The notes below the pieces were generated by a model. It ran no database searches, had not been told where the DNA came from, and saw only the letters and a list, made by a program, of their open reading frames with translations. 64,000 nt of DNA. Source: Mesorhizobium sp. WSM3860 (GTDB lineage Bacteria; Pseudomonadota; Alphaproteobacteria; Rhizobiales; Rhizobiaceae). Both the position numbers and the translations under genes were made by a program. Positions within the stretch are counted from its first letter, which is position 1. Every line of letters begins with the position of its first letter. Below are positions 6,884 to 57,377 of the stretch, in pieces. Where the stretch lies: assembly GCF_002294995.1 (NCBI RefSeq), contig NZ_NSGF01000016.1, positions 1-64,000 on the forward strand. Direction: 5' to 3'.

Positions 6884-6906
6884 ATCTCGCCCCTCGTGGG
6901 GGAGAT
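6884..6906. repeat. Isolated palindrome resembling the outer arm of the glyQ/glyS repeat
   Basis: A 23-bp palindrome starting ATCTCGCCCC and ending GGGGAGAT, related to the outer arms of the repeats at 21151 and 23598. No convincing second hairpin follows it, so it may be a decayed half-element. It lies just past the rnhB stop codon. Confidence 0.4.
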
Positions 6907-20412: not shown

Positions 20413-21480
20413 GTGACCGTCGAGATCCCTGCCCACATGCATCCCAGCCGCTCCTTCCAGGGGCTGATTCTGACCTTGCACAACTACTGGGCAGCTTACG
20501 GCTGCGTCATCCTGCAGCCTTACGACATGGAAGTCGGCGCCGGCACCTTCCACCCGGCGACCACCTTGCGCGCGCTCGGTCCGCTGCGCTGGAACGCGGC
20601 TTACGTGCAGCCGTCGCGCCGGCCGAAGGACGGCCGCTACGGCGAGAATCCGAACCGGCTGCAGCACTACTATCAATATCAGGTGATCCTGAAGCCGAAC
20701 CCGCCGAACCTGCAGGAGCTCTATCTCGGTTCGCTGGAAGCCATCGGCATCGATTCGCTGCTGCATGATATCCGCTTTGTCGAGGACGACTGGGAAAGCC
20801 CGACGCTGGGCGCCTGGGGCCTCGGATGGGAGTGCTGGTGCGACGGCATGGAAGTGTCCCAGTTCACCTATTTCCAGCAGGTTTGCGGCATCGAATGCGC
20901 GCCGGTGGCCGGCGAGCTCACCTATGGGCTCGAGCGGCTCGCCATGTATGTGCAGGGCGTCGACAATATCTACGACTTGAACTTCAACGGCCGCGAAGGG
21001 CCTGAGAAGGTCACCTATGGCGACGTCTTCCGGCAGGCCGAGCAGGAATATTCGCGCCACAATTTCGAATTCGCCAACACGGCGATGCTGCTTCGGCATT
21101 TCGAGGACGCCGAAGCCGAGTGCAAGGCGCTGCTGGCCGCCGGCGCGCCAATCTCCCCCCTTGAGGGGGAGATGTCGGCGAAGCCAACAGAGGGGGTCCT
21201 CGCACAAGGCACCGCCAGAAATGCGTCGAGCGCGTCGCGGGCGACCCCTCCCGACCAGACTTCGTCTGGCCACCCTCCGCTCAAGGGGGAGGGGTATCAT
21301 CGCATGGTCTTCCCGGCCTACGACCAGTGCATCAAGGCAAGCCACGTCTTCAACCTGCTTGACGCCCGCGGCGTGATTTCCGTGACCGAGCGCCAGAGTT
21401 ACATTCTGCGCGTGCGCAACTTGGCCAAGGCTTGCGGGGAGGCGTTCCTGCAGACGCGGGCGGGCGGTCTGGCGGCTTAG
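20413..21480 (+). CDS. glyQ: Glycine-tRNA ligase alpha subunit with embedded repeat
   Basis: The alpha subunit of the alpha2-beta2 glycyl-tRNA synthetase, holding the class II active site that activates glycine. [34 protein letters not shown], in two overlapping conserved parts, and [23 protein letters not shown] are intact. The protein is 355 residues, about 50 above the family norm: residues 247-296 ([15 protein letters not shown] onwards) are encoded by a palindromic repeat inserted in frame just before [17 protein letters not shown]. The catalytic region lies before the insert. The GTG start follows GAGG; ATG at 20437 is an alternative. Confidence 0.95.
21151..21297 (+). repeat. Palindromic element inserted in frame in glyQ
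   Basis: Two inverted half-elements around a variable middle. Left half: outer palindrome 21151-21173 (core CCCCCCTTGAGGGGG), then hairpin GGC-GAA-GCC (21177-21185) and AGAGGGGGTC. Right half in mirror order: GACCCCTC, hairpin CCAGAC-TTC-GTCTGG (21255-21269), outer arm 21271-21294. The reading frame stays open and is the same as in the glyS copy. Confidence 0.85.
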
Positions 21481-21647
21481 CTGGCGATCTCGGCGGCGGC
21501 TGCAATCGGCAACGTGATCTGAACTGTCGCGGCATCGATCGTGCGCAGTGCCTGTCGCACGCCCGGCATCGAGAATGTGCCATGCATCTGGGCGGCGAAG
21601 CAGGCGCTCAGTGCCAGGATCTGCAGGATTCTCGATGCCGTCTTCAT
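21477..21647 (-). CDS. Possible small secreted protein
   Basis: A 56-codon frame on the minus strand: [20 protein letters not shown] has a basic start, a hydrophobic core and an Ala-rich cleavage region like a signal peptide, followed by about 36 residues ending [10 protein letters not shown]. Its TAA overlaps the glyQ stop codon, with the two genes convergent. No good ribosome binding site is seen at the usual spacing. No family is recognised, so this is only a candidate. Confidence 0.45.
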
Positions 21648-21840
21648 GGTCGTTCAGCCAATAGTTCTCCGCCTGAGCGTTGGTCGCTTCAGCACCGCGT
21701 TTGGTTCATGGGATGTCTGTTCTTAAGACGGGTGGGCTCGCGTCGTCCCGACAAAGAACTGAAAATTTCCTGAAATAGCTCGAACTGGCGATCGGCAGGC
21801 AGGGTGACAGGCGCGAGCCGAGTTGCTATGCGCCCTCTAT

Positions 21841-21892
21841 CTCCCCCTTGATGGGGGAGGTCGCCGCAAAGCGGCGGGTGGGGGTGACGGGC
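21841..21892. repeat. Left half-element flanking the DUF559 gene
   Basis: Outer palindrome CTCCCCCTTGATGGGGGAG (21841-21859), inner hairpin CGCCGC-AAA-GCGGCG (21862-21876), then GGTGGGGGTGACGGGC. It has the same order as the left halves in glyQ and glyS, and its mirror copy lies after the gene at 22309. The DUF559 ATG follows nine bases later. Confidence 0.8.
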
Positions 21893-21900
21893 GCTTCCCT

Positions 21901-22302
21901 ATGCCAAAACTTGATCGGTTCAAGCTGCAGTCCGCACGAAGGCTGCGCGCGGCAATGACCGAGGAGGAACGCAGGCTGTGGCGGCACCTCTGGCGCATTC
22001 CGGTCGAAGGAACGCACTTTCGTCGACAAGCGTCGGTTGGCGGTTACTATCCTGACTTTATCTCACATCGGCTGAAGCTGATCATCGAGGTGGATGGCTT
22101 CCAACATGGTTTTGATGGCCAGCAGCGCCATGATGAAGTCCGAACCAGATGGTTTGAGAGCCAAGGCTATCGCGTCGTCCGCTTCTGGAACCACGAGATA
22201 AAAAACGAACTGGATTCCGTACTCGATACAATCTATGCGGCGGTGGAAGAACGAAAATCACACCTTGGTCTGCGCGATGGTGCCGAAGGTGCTGGCGGCT
22301 GA
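21901..22302 (+). CDS. DUF559 domain protein, VSR-like endonuclease fold
   Basis: A 133-residue member of DUF559, related to very-short-patch-repair nucleases and the PD-(D/E)XK fold. ARRLRAAMTEEERRLWRHLW leads into FRRQASVGGYYPDFISHRLKLIIEVDG, with Asp52, Glu63 and Asp65 as likely metal ligands, and FESQGYRVVRFWNHEI closes the core. It lacks a visible ribosome binding site. It lies between glyQ and glyS, which are adjacent in most relatives, and is bracketed by inverted half-elements. A role in moving the repeats is inferred from position only. Confidence 0.88.
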   Translation: MPKLDRFKLQSARRLRAAMTEEERRLWRHLWRIPVEGTHFRRQASVGGYYPDFISHRLKLIIEVDGFQHGFDGQQRHDEVRTRWFESQGYRVVRFWNHEIKNELDSVLDTIYAAVEERKSHLGLRDGAEGAGG

Positions 22303-22305
22303 AAC

Positions 22306-22357
22306 GCGCCACCCCACCCCGGCGCTACGCGCCGACCCTCCCCATCAAGGGGAGGGT
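22306..22357. repeat. Right half-element flanking the DUF559 gene
   Basis: In mirror order to 21841: GCGCCACCCCACCCC, inner hairpin CGGCGC-TAC-GCGCCG (22320-22334), then outer palindrome 22335-22357 (ACCCTCCCC-ATCAA-GGGGAGGGT without the shared centre). The glyS ribosome binding site AAGGAG starts at the next base. Confidence 0.8.
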
Positions 22358-22370
22358 AAGGAGCTAACTA

Positions 22371-24680
22371 ATGCCTGACCTACTCCTAGAACTCCGCTCG
22401 GAAGAGATCCCCGCGCGCATGCAGCGCAAGGCGGCTGGCGATCTGCGCAAGACGCTGACCGACGGCTTGGTCGAGGCGGGCCTCACCTATGAGGCGGGGC
22501 GCGAATACTGGACGCCGCGCCGGCTGGCGCTGGACATCCGCGGGCTGACGGCGCGCTCGAAGGACATTCGCGAGGAAATAAAGGGTCCCTCGACCACGGC
22601 GCCCGAGCAGGCGGTGCAGGGTTTCCTGCGCAAGGCCGGCCTTTCATCGATCGCCGAGGCGCATGTCCATTCCGATCCCAAGAAGGGCGACTTCTACGTT
22701 GCTCACATCTCGAAGCCGGGCAGGGCGGCCGAAGAGATCATCGCCGAACTGGTGCCGGGCATCATCAAGAACTTTCCCTGGCCGAAATCGATGCGCTGGG
22801 GGCCGGCCTCGGCCAAACCCGGCTCGCTGCGCTGGGTGCGGCCACTGCAGTCGATCGTCTGCACCTTCGGCCCCGAGACTGAGGAGCCGGTGGTGGTCGA
22901 TTTCGAGGTCGACGGTATCCGCTCCGGCAACGTCACCTACGGCCACCGCTTCCACGCACCGGGCCCGATCACCGTGCGCCGCTTCGACGACTATGTGAGC
23001 AAGCTCGAAGCGGCCAAGGTCGTGCTTGATGCCGATCGGCGCAAGGAGATCATCCTGGCCGATGCCCGCAACGTCGCCTTCGCCAACGGCCTCGATCTCG
23101 TCGAGGACGAGGGCCTGCTGGAAGAGGTCGCCGGCCTGGTCGAATGGCCGGTCGTCCTGATGGGCGAGTTCGAGCAAGATTTTCTCACCATCCCGGCCGA
23201 GGTCATTCGCCTGACCATTCGCGCCAACCAGAAGTGTTTCGTCACCCGGCCGCAAGGTGCGGCTGAGGACCTTTCCGACCGCTTCATCCTGATTGCCAAT
23301 ATCGAGGCGAAGGACGGAGGCAAGGAGATCGCATACGGCAACGGCAAGGTGGTCAGGGCGCGCCTCTCCGATGCGCTCTATTTCTGGAAGACCGACCAGG
23401 GCGACCTGCCCGACCTCGGCACTCTGCAGGAGTCGGCGGCGAAATTCGACCTCGACCTGAAGAAGCCGCTCGACCAGCGCATGGCCCGCCTCGACCATCT
23501 CAACGTGACTTTCCATGCCAAGCTTGGCACGCAAGGCGCCCGGGTCGAGCGGATCGAGCGGCTGGCGGAAGAACTGGCGCCGACGGTGGCGAAGTCGATC
23601 TCCCCCCTTGAGGGGGAGATGGCCGGCAGGCCAGAGGGGGTCGCCGCGCGTGAAGCGCCGACATCTTCCGCGCTGAGAGGAAGCGTCGGCGCTCCAGGCG
23701 AGACGCCCCCCTCTGTCGCCTTCGGCGACATCTTCCCCTCAAGGGGAGAGATCACCGCGCTCGTCGCCCGCGCCGCGGTGCTGGCCAAGGCAGATCTGCA
23801 GACCGAGGTCGTAGGCGAGTTCCCGGAATTGCAGGGCGCCATGGGCCGCAAATATGCTTTGCTGCAGGGCGAGCATCCGTCGGTGGCTGCGGCCGCCGAG
23901 GAGCACTACAAGCCGCAAGGCCCGTCCGACCGGGTGCCGACCGATCCGGTGTCGGTTGCTGTCGCGCTTGCCGACAAGCTCGACACGCTGACCGGCTTCT
24001 GGGCGATTGATGAAAAGCCGACAGGCAGCAAGGATCCGTTCGCACTCAGAAGAGCTGCACTCGGCGTGGTCAGAATCCTGATCGAGAACCGCATTCGCCT
24101 CGGACTGACATCGGTCTTCGCCAAGGCCTTTGCGAGCTTCGCCGGCGGTGCCGCACAAATTTCGGATCTCCTCGGCTTCTTCCATGATCGCCTCAAGGTC
24201 TATCTCCGCGACCAGGGCGCACGGTACGATCTGATCGACGCCGTCATCACGCCGCAGTCCGACGACCTTCTGCAGATCGTCCGCCGCGTCGAGGCGCTGG
24301 GCTCGTTCCTCGACACCGAGGACGGCAAGAACCTGCTCGCCGGTACCAAGCGCGCCGCCAACATCCTGGCCGCCGAGGAGAAGAAGAAAACGCTGGTCGC
24401 CGAAACTGTTGAGCCGGCGCTGTTCCGCGAAGACGCGGAAAAGAGCCTGTTTGTTGCGGTGAATCAGGCCGAGAAGGAAGCCGGCCAAGCGATTCAAAAC
24501 GAAGATTTTTCCGCCGCCATGCTGTCGCTTAGCGTTTTGCGTGAACCGGTTGATTCATTCTTTGAAGGGGTTCTCGTGAATGATGAGGACCAGGCCGTGC
24601 GAGCCAACCGGCTGGCTCTGCTTGCCCGCATCCGCGCCGCCACCGACCAGGTCGCCGACTTTTCAAAAATCGTCGGCTGA
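22371..24680 (+). CDS. glyS: Glycine-tRNA ligase beta subunit with embedded repeat
   Basis: The beta subunit, which binds tRNA-Gly and carries an anticodon-binding-like C-terminal domain. [32 protein letters not shown] and NPLVNDE-like C-terminal [16 protein letters not shown] mark the family. At 769 residues it is longer than usual; residues 410-461 ([14 protein letters not shown] to FPSRGEI) come from a repeat inserted in frame between ELAPTVAKS and the conserved [26 protein letters not shown] lies eight bases before the ATG. Confidence 0.96.
23598..23753 (+). repeat. Palindromic element inserted in frame in glyS
   Basis: The left outer palindrome (23598-23620) is identical over 23 bases to the glyQ copy. 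Inner hairpins are TGGCC-GGCA-GGCCA (23620-23633) and TGTCGCC-TTC-GGCGACA (23714-23730). The right outer palindrome is at 23730-23752. The element spans about 52 codons without a stop. Confidence 0.88.
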
Positions 24681-24739: not shown

Positions 24740-25330
24740 CTACATTGCCTTGCTGAAGCGCGGCGGCGTCGGGGCAGCTTCCGGTTGGGCTTCCGGTTGC
24801 GTCTCGCCGTCGGACGCAGTTGCCGTCGTGGCGGGGTTGTTCTCGGACGCGTTGGTATCGCCGTTGGGGGCAGCCTGAGCCGTGCCGTTGGGGGGCGTAG
24901 CCGCAGCCGTACCGTTAGGAGGCGTGCCGGCGGGCGCGGTGCCGTTTGCCGGTGTCGCGGCCTCCTGATCCGTGGCAGTCACCGCGGGCGTCGCCGAAGC
25001 GCCGCCGACGATGCCGCCGCGAATGATTGTCGGCGCCTGCGCGTGCCTCTGTCCGGATTTCTCCGGGATCGCGGCCACTTTCTCATCGGTGACGGCTGGC
25101 ACCGGCTCGCCGAGCGCCACAACTGACGGTGTAGCCTTGCCGGGCTCGATCGCGGCCAGCCTGACAACGGATGGCGTCGAGGTCGCAGCGCCGAGCACGA
25201 CGATGGACGAAGCCTGTGCCAAGCCGCCAGTCGCCAAGAGGCCGACACAGACCGCTCCTAGAGCAATTCCAGGAAAGGGACGTAACAGCTTTCCGTCCGG
25301 AATTGCATAAACGCAAGGCATACGCAACAC
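24740..25330 (-). CDS. Secreted low-complexity protein, signal region formed by a dispersed repeat
   Basis: A 196-residue protein with a signal-like start (LLRPFPGIALGAVCVGLLATGGLAQA) and an Ala/Thr/Pro-rich body with PPNGTA repeats near 130-160 and an acidic, Gln/Pro-rich end. No domain is recognised. The bases encoding residues 4-23 (AIPDGKLLRPFPGIAL) are a copy of the dispersed palindrome also found at 26464 and 31535. It is convergent with glyS. It may be a periplasmic or surface protein; real expression is not certain. Confidence 0.6.
   Translation of the reverse strand: MLRMPCVYAIPDGKLLRPFPGIALGAVCVGLLATGGLAQASSIVVLGAATSTPSVVRLAAIEPGKATPSVVALGEPVPAVTDEKVAAIPEKSGQRHAQAPTIIRGGIVGGASATPAVTATDQEAATPANGTAPAGTPPNGTAAATPPNGTAQAAPNGDTNASENNPATTATASDGETQPEAQPEAAPTPPRFSKAM
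25259..25312 (-). repeat. Dispersed palindrome, family B copy 1
   Basis: Reads GCAATTCCGGACGGAAA ... CCTGGAATTGCTCTA on the minus strand, an imperfect inverted repeat of about 50 bases. It forms the start of the coding sequence of the secreted protein at 24740-25330. Copies 2 and 3 are better conserved with each other than with this one. Confidence 0.8.
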
Positions 25331-26463: not shown

Positions 26464-26530
26464 CCTATCTCTTTGTTTTGACGCAATTCCGGACGGAAAA
26501 CCGCTTCACACTTTTCCTGGAATTGCTCTA
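26464..26530 (+). repeat. Dispersed palindrome, family B copy 2
   Basis: Begins CCTATCTCTTTGTTTTGACG and contains GCAATTCCGGACGGAAAACC, then TTTTCCTGGAATTGCTCTA. It fills the gap between the Sua5 gene and the FAD oxidoreductase, ending nine bases before the latter's ATG. The inverted arms GCAATTCC/GGAATTGC and GGAAAA/TTTTCC can pair. Confidence 0.8.
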
Positions 26531-28722: not shown

Positions 28723-28735
28723 GCATGGCGCCTCT

Positions 28736-28765
28736 CCTTCTCCCACAAGGGAGAAGGGGGAGTCC
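28736..28765. repeat. Short intergenic palindrome between convergent genes
   Basis: CTCCTTCTCCC-ACA-AGGGAGAAGGGGGAG is a short palindrome between the DUF6101 gene and ubiA. A related text is at 9697-9722 after the glycosyltransferase-like gene. It could act as a bidirectional transcript end. Confidence 0.5.
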
Positions 28766-57042: not shown

Positions 57043-57086
57043 CGCGTGTCCCTTTGCGATAAGCAGTCCTCCGCCTGACCATGCGG

Positions 57087-57257
57087 ATGACCATGTCTGC
57101 CGGGCCGGTCTTCTGGCTCGGGATCGACCCGCATCCGGCGCCTTCCCGTCTAGGACAGTGGCTTTTGCCGGCGCGGTACCCCTCACAGCGTTGGGCACGC
57201 CACGGATTTCAACCGTGTTCCCGATTCTCCCGCCTTGCGGGCACCAGGCAGCGGCGC
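57087..57257 (-). ncRNA. Cobalamin riboswitch upstream of bluB
   Basis: On the minus strand, in order: GGTGCC near the start, GGGAA and the AATCCGTGGC helix, GCCACTG, GGAAGGCGCCGGA, and the B12 box GAGCCAGAAGACCGGCC (about 57120-57104). These are the conserved blocks of the AdoCbl-binding RNA. It ends about 45 bases before the bluB ATG, so it probably controls translation or early termination. It explains the 335-base gap to the divergent histone-deacetylase-like gene; the remainder holds both promoters. Confidence 0.93.
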
Positions 57258-57377
57258 GACCTTATCGCGATGCGGAAGCCGAGCCAATGCCGCCAGCGAC
57301 ACGATCGGGCGCGATTTCCCCAACCATTCGGCACTGAAACATGGCTATCCGCGCGACAGGTGCCTAGATTAGGCGCC

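Follow-up and report, generated by a model that had tools for sequence, protein, structure and literature searches.

What are the six short palindromic half-elements that surround glyQ, a DUF559 gene and glyS in Mesorhizobium sp. WSM3860? They lie in the first 64,000 nucleotides of contig NZ_NSGF01000016.1 (assembly GCF_002294995.1; this whole stretch is called the window). Within positions 21151-23753 they form three inward-facing inverted pairs, one in glyQ (21152-21294), one around the DUF559 gene (21841-22356) and one in glyS (23599-23749), and both gene inserts keep the reading frame. E. coli has been known for decades to carry triplex-coding repeats, and Pfam still lists DUF559 as a protein of unknown function. 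Here we report that the G-rich tail of such halves follows a three-strand sequence code, that DUF559 genes are bracketed by them in many bacteria, that the copies are present or absent at orthologous sites, and that their arm type is co-inherited with the DUF559 lineage. We consider it likely that these halves mark both ends of a small mobile element and that DUF559 is its gene, probably for a nuclease that reads the folded ends.

The G-rich tail mirrors the purine arm of the outer hairpin

The initial annotation had described each half as an outer palindrome, an inner hairpin and a G-rich GGGGGT segment; the segment is present, but its fit to a third strand had been overlooked. In every arm family the tail repeats the outer hairpin's purine arm in reversed, uncomplemented order, and an A in the arm is answered by A or T (arm/tail pairs GGGGGAGA/AGAGGGGG; GGGAGAAGG/GGATGAGGG; GGGGAGAGGG/GGGTGAGGGG; GGGGAGGG/GGGAGGGG or GGGTGGGG; AGGGGAAGG/GGATGGGGA). 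A or T over A is the rule of the antiparallel purine-motif triplex. The same rule is used for the E. coli motif in PMC4666352. As judged from its letters, the tail could serve as third strand in an intrastrand purine-motif DNA triplex, i.e., the BoxC/PIT/TM motif, and four of the six window halves combine a homopyrimidine-homopurine hairpin with a mirror third strand at 0 mismatches.

Among 176 non-symmetric inward arms, a set still including one N-run artefact locus and three loci with wrong gene coordinates, the arm's own mirror image matches the tail perfectly in 89 (50.6%) and the unmirrored arm in 31, as against 4.1% of 1184 when arms are swapped between families and 0.9% in shuffled sequence. 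When the tail is placed by its G positions alone, the mirror orientation is found for 172 of 276 inward arms and the direct orientation for 107. In the mirror orientation the tail letters opposite an arm A are then A 272, T 85, C 6 and G 4 (A or T in 357/367); in the direct one they are T 65, C 106, A 50 and G 10.

DUF559 genes are bracketed by inward-facing halves

The DUF559 gene is in place between the middle halves, as the initial annotation had it, but the bracketing of such genes in many bacteria had escaped notice. Of the 11 PF04480 matches in the source genome, two are pieces of the same broken gene and one is a large protein; several are flanked by inverted halves. With the broken gene and the large protein excluded from the counts, 145 non-duplicate DUF559 loci were gathered from this genome, the best 80 of 546 named matches and further genome-search matches, mostly from Alphaproteobacteria and many from Mesorhizobium. 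At 82 of 142 testable loci, but at 0 of 450 shifted positions, an inverted repeat spans the gene. Triplex halves face inward on both sides in 61 of the 139 loci scored for them and on a single side in another 59; shifted controls give 1/216 and 21/216. Because families share ends, 11% of 340 pairings of an upstream with a downstream flank from different loci also reach the repeat threshold, in a set that still included the N-run artefact and a few contig-end loci with wrong gene coordinates. A second set of 29 new loci, each from a different genome, was drawn later at class level, where 43 of 115 genomes have a match. It gave a similar picture: 19/29 with an inverted repeat, 15/29 with halves on both sides and 11/29 on one side, and 0/29 throughout for reversed sequences.

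Spanning repeats at named loci include those of Rhodocyclales, Burkholderiales, Legionellales and SAR202 bacteria, and a DUF559 gene on a cyanobacterial plasmid sits among CCCCC-GGGGG palindromes followed by G runs, a case left unscored because the detector needs an A in the arm. The survey of spanning repeats at named loci and the listing of arm/tail pairs still include the N-run artefact locus and the three loci with wrong coordinates. Arm type tracks the DUF559 tree: 109 proteins with six types take 15 changes against a shuffled mean of 51.7 (0/200 as low), although this tree is poorly resolved, near-copies also cluster in it, and three loci and those with discordant arm types on their two sides were excluded.

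Many contigs end near a DUF559 element (ten loci noted) and one starts with a long run of C. Assemblies seem to break at these elements.

The six window halves and their inner hairpins

All six halves and all six inner hairpins named in the initial annotation were found where it had placed them (Table 1). A strict detector, requiring a perfect pyrimidine/purine stem of at least 7 plus a mirror tail, returns four halves over the whole window (halves 1, 3, 4 and 5), while halves 2 and 6 have a single outer-stem mismatch each; the half 2 stem is intact in most of the glyQ-insert orthologues compared. Half 1 has 0 mismatches to the mirror rule and one inner pair broken relative to orthologues. Folded as single-stranded DNA, the six halves have z-scores of -2.2, -1.5, -3.7, -3.4, -2.5 and -2.0, and individual halves are therefore just moderately unusual in folding. 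The pattern CCCCTTGAGGGG occurs 30 times in the genome and its reversed form 0 times. An Rfam scan gave no family match in the six-half region and, elsewhere in the window, a cobalamin riboswitch alone.

Table 1. Features in the window (element limits of the two inserts approximate)
Feature	Position	Strand	Description
Half 1, glyQ insert left end	21152-21196	+	stem TCTCCCCC-CTTGA-GGGGGAGA, inner hairpin TGTCGGC-GAA-GCCAAC(A), third strand AGAGGGGG
Half 2, glyQ insert right end	21245-21294	-	CCCTCCCC-type stem with one substitution, inner hairpin GGCCAGAC-GAA-GTCTGGTC, tail GGGAGGGG
In-frame glyQ insert	21150-21300	+	~150 bp
Half 3, DUF559 element left end	21841-21884	+	CTCCCCC-TTGAT-GGGGGAG, inner hairpin CGCCGC-AAA-GCGGCG, third strand GTGGGGG
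DUF559 gene	21901-22302	+	PF04480 (E 2.4e-34), predicted Vsr-like PD-(D/E)XK nuclease, proposed mobility gene
Half 4, DUF559 element right end	22312-22356	-	CCCTCCCC-TTGAT-GGGGAGGG, inner hairpin CGGCGC-GTA-GCGCCG, third strand GGGTGGGG
Half 5, glyS insert left end	23599-23640	+	TCTCCCCC-CTTGA-GGGGGAGA, inner hairpin TGGCC-GGCA-GGCC(A), third strand AGAGGGGG
Half 6, glyS insert right end	~23708-23749	-	TCTCTCCCC-TTGA-GGGGAAGA, inner hairpin TGTCGCC-GAA-GGCGAC(A), tail AGAGGGG; stem degenerate, one mismatch
In-frame glyS insert	23598-23752	+	
Cobalamin riboswitch	57086-57263	-	
Second palindromic repeat family	25260-25320, 26480-26530		AATTCC...GGAATT ends; also downstream of glyQ at two further loci
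Two lone palindromes	6888-6906, 28730-28757		resemble the halves, lack the third strand; perhaps remnants

The inner hairpin stands where a linker would join strands two and three. Linkers measure 13-18 nt in the window halves; over 207 inward halves they have 6 nt or fewer in 30 (often TAAG or TTA) and 10-70 nt in 174. Among 107 distinct linkers of 10-70 nt from all arm families, 70 have a stem of at least 4 near both ends, against 12% in shuffled sequence and 23% when halves of equal length are swapped. Inner arms are perfectly paired in 144 of 160 type-A copies, and the 39 distinct type-A inner sequences include 23 perfect ones (59%, against 37% for swapped arms; mean pairing 0.85 vs 0.72).

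Orthologous copies vary in the same way. In some genomes the left stem of the glyQ insert, whose pair is broken here (GTCGGC-GAA-GCCAAC), is TGTCGGC-GAA-GCCGACA; other genomes have TGCCCGC-GAA-GCGGGCA in its place. The right stem reads GGCCAGAC..GTCTGGCC or GGCCCTTCGGGCC. The view that different inner stems keep pairing holds for most halves. In 16 halves, 98.3% of cells are paired in the named structure and the covariation score is 0.213, whereas shuffles score 0.046 (0/500 reach the observed value) and slid partners no more than 0.050; as these sequences were hand-picked for different stems, the score illustrates the pattern and is no measure of it. A covariance model (R1) built from 16 hand-picked halves matches all 13 genus genomes searched, with 9 to at least 150 matches each and at least 150 in 5, in line with the many further copies that had been expected. 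That the folded form is under selection, as first proposed, is plausible but not proven: stems vary and yet stay paired in paralogous and orthologous copies, but their excess over swapped arms, counted on distinct sequences, is genuine yet moderate, and copying of a few stem types, or of arms from each other, would likewise leave paired stems.

Short copies are numerous and their sites variable

In 400 kb of one genome, chosen for model matches, 163 halves form 47 inward pairs, of which 34 span 140-160 bp; 200 kb of shuffled sequence has 0 halves. Short pairs of this genome join two different hairpin types in 42 of 43 cases. With the ends re-dealt, 16.7 homotypic pairs would be expected (never below 8 in 2000), against the one observed, although a burst of copies from a single master could also yield this two-type pairing.

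Besides the source genome, 78 genomes have a glyQ match; the glyQ-glyS region was compared in 40 of them, a selection that includes those with long frames. Of the 40 genus sequences that could be parsed (own included; one could not), 9 have the glyQ insert, all at one and the same codon, and the rest lack it. In glyS, 18 of the 36 sequences scored have at least one strict half, at various positions; a duplicated glyS start caused five more to be misparsed. A partial duplicate of the glyS start lies directly upstream of glyS in five genomes. Complete DUF559 elements between glyQ and glyS are found in some species and absent from others, and some species without the element keep one half.

Across a family-level, probably Rhizobiaceae-like, sample of 60 genomes, TCTCCC-GGGAGA palindromes have a median of 5.5 in the 38 with DUF559 and of 1 in the 22 without (p 3.6e-4, ancestry uncorrected). 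Four DUF559-less genomes carry at least 17 of them.

The DUF559 protein is a predicted Vsr-like nuclease

Profile searches match the window protein to the DUF559 structure 3hrl (E 2.2e-37) and the homing endonuclease I-Bth0305I, 3r3p (E 3.1e-4). Structure prediction from the single sequence was unusable (predicted local distance difference test, pLDDT, 43); an alignment of 49 loci, used in its place, gave a fold (pLDDT 80.7) nearest 3hrl, 3r3p and Vsr (1vsr). Over these 49 sequences 18 positions are invariant, among them E23, D52, E63, D65, H69 and D78. The protein is accordingly modelled, and predicted, as a Vsr-like PD-(D/E)XK nuclease. In earlier papers, YcjD was placed near Vsr (PMC1189080) and the Caulobacter DUF559 protein VsrA was proposed as a Vsr-type repair enzyme (PMC12907096).

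A DUF559 gene lies beside an E. coli triplex motif

The E. coli motif was found in more than 260 genomes in a 2015 survey, and its triplex formed in vitro as seen by circular dichroism and nuclear magnetic resonance (PMC4666352, which also relays the PIT work of Hoyne and Maher). In that survey, Holder et al. 2015 state that mobility genes were never found near the motif. However, their motif number 9, at 1,351,204-1,351,239 (PMC4666352), ends 167 bp from ycjD (1,351,407-1,351,760), a member of the DUF559 family that 3365 of 5426 E. coli genomes carry. From the sequences, DUF559 is a candidate for the missing mobility gene of the BoxC/PIT/TM repeats.

Sites vary in E. coli as well. MEI003 and HB42 lack the hrpB-mrcB pair that K-12 carries, and 2010C_5028 has a single palindrome of it left, as MINF_9A and Esc22 have of the alx-sstT pair; the tusA-zntA copy is nearly universal in E. 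coli and no empty site was obtained for it. Strains without the fabI-side match do not simply lack an insertion, as an efflux operon is there in O157:H7 and ST131; according to PMC12817139, ycjD replaces that operon in phylogroups A, B1 and C. Among the matches listed (40 of 5393 records), the 25 with a full ycjD-side copy have a median of 18 motif places and the 15 without a median of 3, a link confounded by ancestry because the ycjD/efflux operon alternative follows phylogroup.

Discussion

These results suggest, as the likely explanation, a small mobile element with DUF559 as its gene. In its complete form it would consist of a half, the DUF559 gene and a second half (~500 bp), and gene-less two-half forms of ~140-160 bp would be non-autonomous derivatives, two of them in frame in glyQ and glyS. 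A single-stranded end would fold into a hairpin of pyrimidine arm, loop and purine arm, and the G-rich tail would then bind the purine arm as an antiparallel third strand (G.GC, A.AT, T.AT), strands two and three being joined by the inner hairpin or by a linker of 2-6 nt. The DUF559 protein, Vsr/I-Bth0305I-like, would most likely recognise the folded end where DNA is single-stranded, e.g., on the lagging strand or in repair, and would nick or cut there; repair would leave a copy at the new site without visible duplication. The folding step draws on the sequence code and the published in vitro work in E. coli, while for triplexes in cells, and for end recognition, cutting, transposition and the route of insertion, we infer what the folded ends would make possible.

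Several observations weigh against this proposal. Some relatives that appear empty between glyQ and glyS retain one half, so that these data do not separate gain from loss there. No clear target duplication was seen in 31 presence/absence events (40 genomes plus our own; some of these events being unrelated repeats or hypothetical genes) or at two E. coli sites, where flanks have diverged, and at the junctions compared, likewise with diverged flanks, 16-28 bp of target seem replaced. Across the 13 genus genomes, DUF559 and half counts do not simply track each other (one genome has 2 DUF559 matches and at least 150 matches to the covariance model), 4 of the 22 DUF559-less genomes in the family-level sample have at least 10 TCTCCC-GGGAGA palindromes, and at 19 of 139 DUF559 loci neither side has a half. 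Outward-facing hairpins often fit the mirror code too (74/238 perfect; G-placed, 99/276 against 172/276 inward), in part because elements cluster and neighbouring halves lie close together. Finally, a published in vivo footprint in E. coli (PMC4666352) showed no stable triplex.

This last result would also suit ends that fold as G-quadruplexes or plain hairpins, the mirror relation being a by-product of G-rich composition, as would the four G runs of GGGAGAGGGTTAGGGTGAGGGG-type ends. We hold this to be rather improbable, since the A of the tail mirrors the arm family by family (A or T in 357/367), swapped arms fit in 4.1% against 50.6% for own arms, and type-A ends have two long G runs only. 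DUF559 might otherwise be a passenger, the triplex-prone repeats being unstable hot spots between two of which a Vsr-type repair gene was caught, or was kept for repair there. The repair role proposed for VsrA (PMC12907096), the report of triplex motifs as unstable sites (PMC4666352) and the far greater number of short copies than of DUF559 copies are in its favour; it is unlikely nonetheless, because one unit fits better than repeated capture the excess of inward halves on both sides (61/139) over outward pairs (15/139), the two-side repeat similarity (82/142 vs 0/450, seen again in the second set) and the agreement of arm type with the DUF559 tree.

Non-mobile elements acting at the RNA level, as terminators or mRNA stabilisers, would account for stable hairpins but hardly for copies in frame inside glyQ and glyS, for a region without any Rfam family or for presence and absence at orthologous sites, and we regard them as very improbable. 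A REP/REPIN family moved by a RAYT (Y1) transposase would share the small inverted palindrome pairs, the many copies and the single associated gene. However, the gene between the halves is DUF559 and the genome has 0 PF01797 (Y1 transposase) matches, so that a RAYT system was rejected for this genome and has next to no credibility as an explanation.

The mobile element bracketed by triplex-coding halves is, on our best reading, a class (triplex half, DUF559, triplex half) undescribed so far; we found no paper linking DUF559 with triplex repeats in the open-licence literature, subscription journals and preprints lying outside the scope of the search. The wider claim, that a Vsr-like DUF559 nuclease reads three-stranded ends in a new class of mobile elements, the first known with a DNA triplex as its end signal and the source of the BoxC/PIT/TM repeats that range from Rhizobiales through E. 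coli to cyanobacteria, has in our judgement about an even chance of being right. If true, a one-gene element would explain the spread of triplex-coding repeats, DUF559 would gain a role, the in-frame glyQ and glyS insertions of mesorhizobia would be accounted for, and whether cells use DNA triplexes could be tested directly, a protein of 120 residues and short oligonucleotides being enough.

Comparison with known systems

The resemblance to REP sequences seen in the initial annotation stands as to logic, i.e., small palindromes in inverted pairs with one nuclease gene, but not as to the RAYT system. Like the REPIN/RAYT system (REPtron), the present one joins miniature inverted palindrome pairs to a single nuclease gene; it differs in having a PD-(D/E)XK Vsr-like enzyme in place of a Y1 HUH one, in a genome without RAYT, and in ends with a third strand. 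No REPIN GTAG (or CGTC) tag was apparent by eye in the six halves, no scan having been made. RIME of Sinorhizobium is a palindromic repeat of ~100 bp, similar by description to the elements here. Bru-RS of Brucella, set beside them likewise by description, are palindromic Rhizobiales repeats of ~100 bp (sizes from PMC10800456).

Vsr, the EDxHD homing endonucleases (I-Bth0305I, 3r3p) and the DUF559 structure 3hrl are related to the encoded protein in fold and sequence. However, the genes of homing endonucleases lie in introns or inteins, whereas the gene here lies between inverted triplex-coding repeats.

The closest likeness in the ends themselves is to BoxC/PIT/TM (PMC4666352): both have a pyrimidine arm, loop, purine arm, linker and G-rich third strand with A or T over A, both occur as inverted pairs with a wide bacterial spread, and all five close E. 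coli pairs join type A and type B linkers, much as 42 of 43 short pairs here are heterotypic. In contrast with that paper, which reports no nearby mobility gene, the motif here brackets DUF559, and copies also lie inside genes. The published ITxF search used a second loop of 1-6 nt, within which 30 of 207 halves fall here, most having hairpin linkers. Because this second loop measures 13-18 nt at the window ends, they are best described as a variant of the TM/BoxC/PIT motif.

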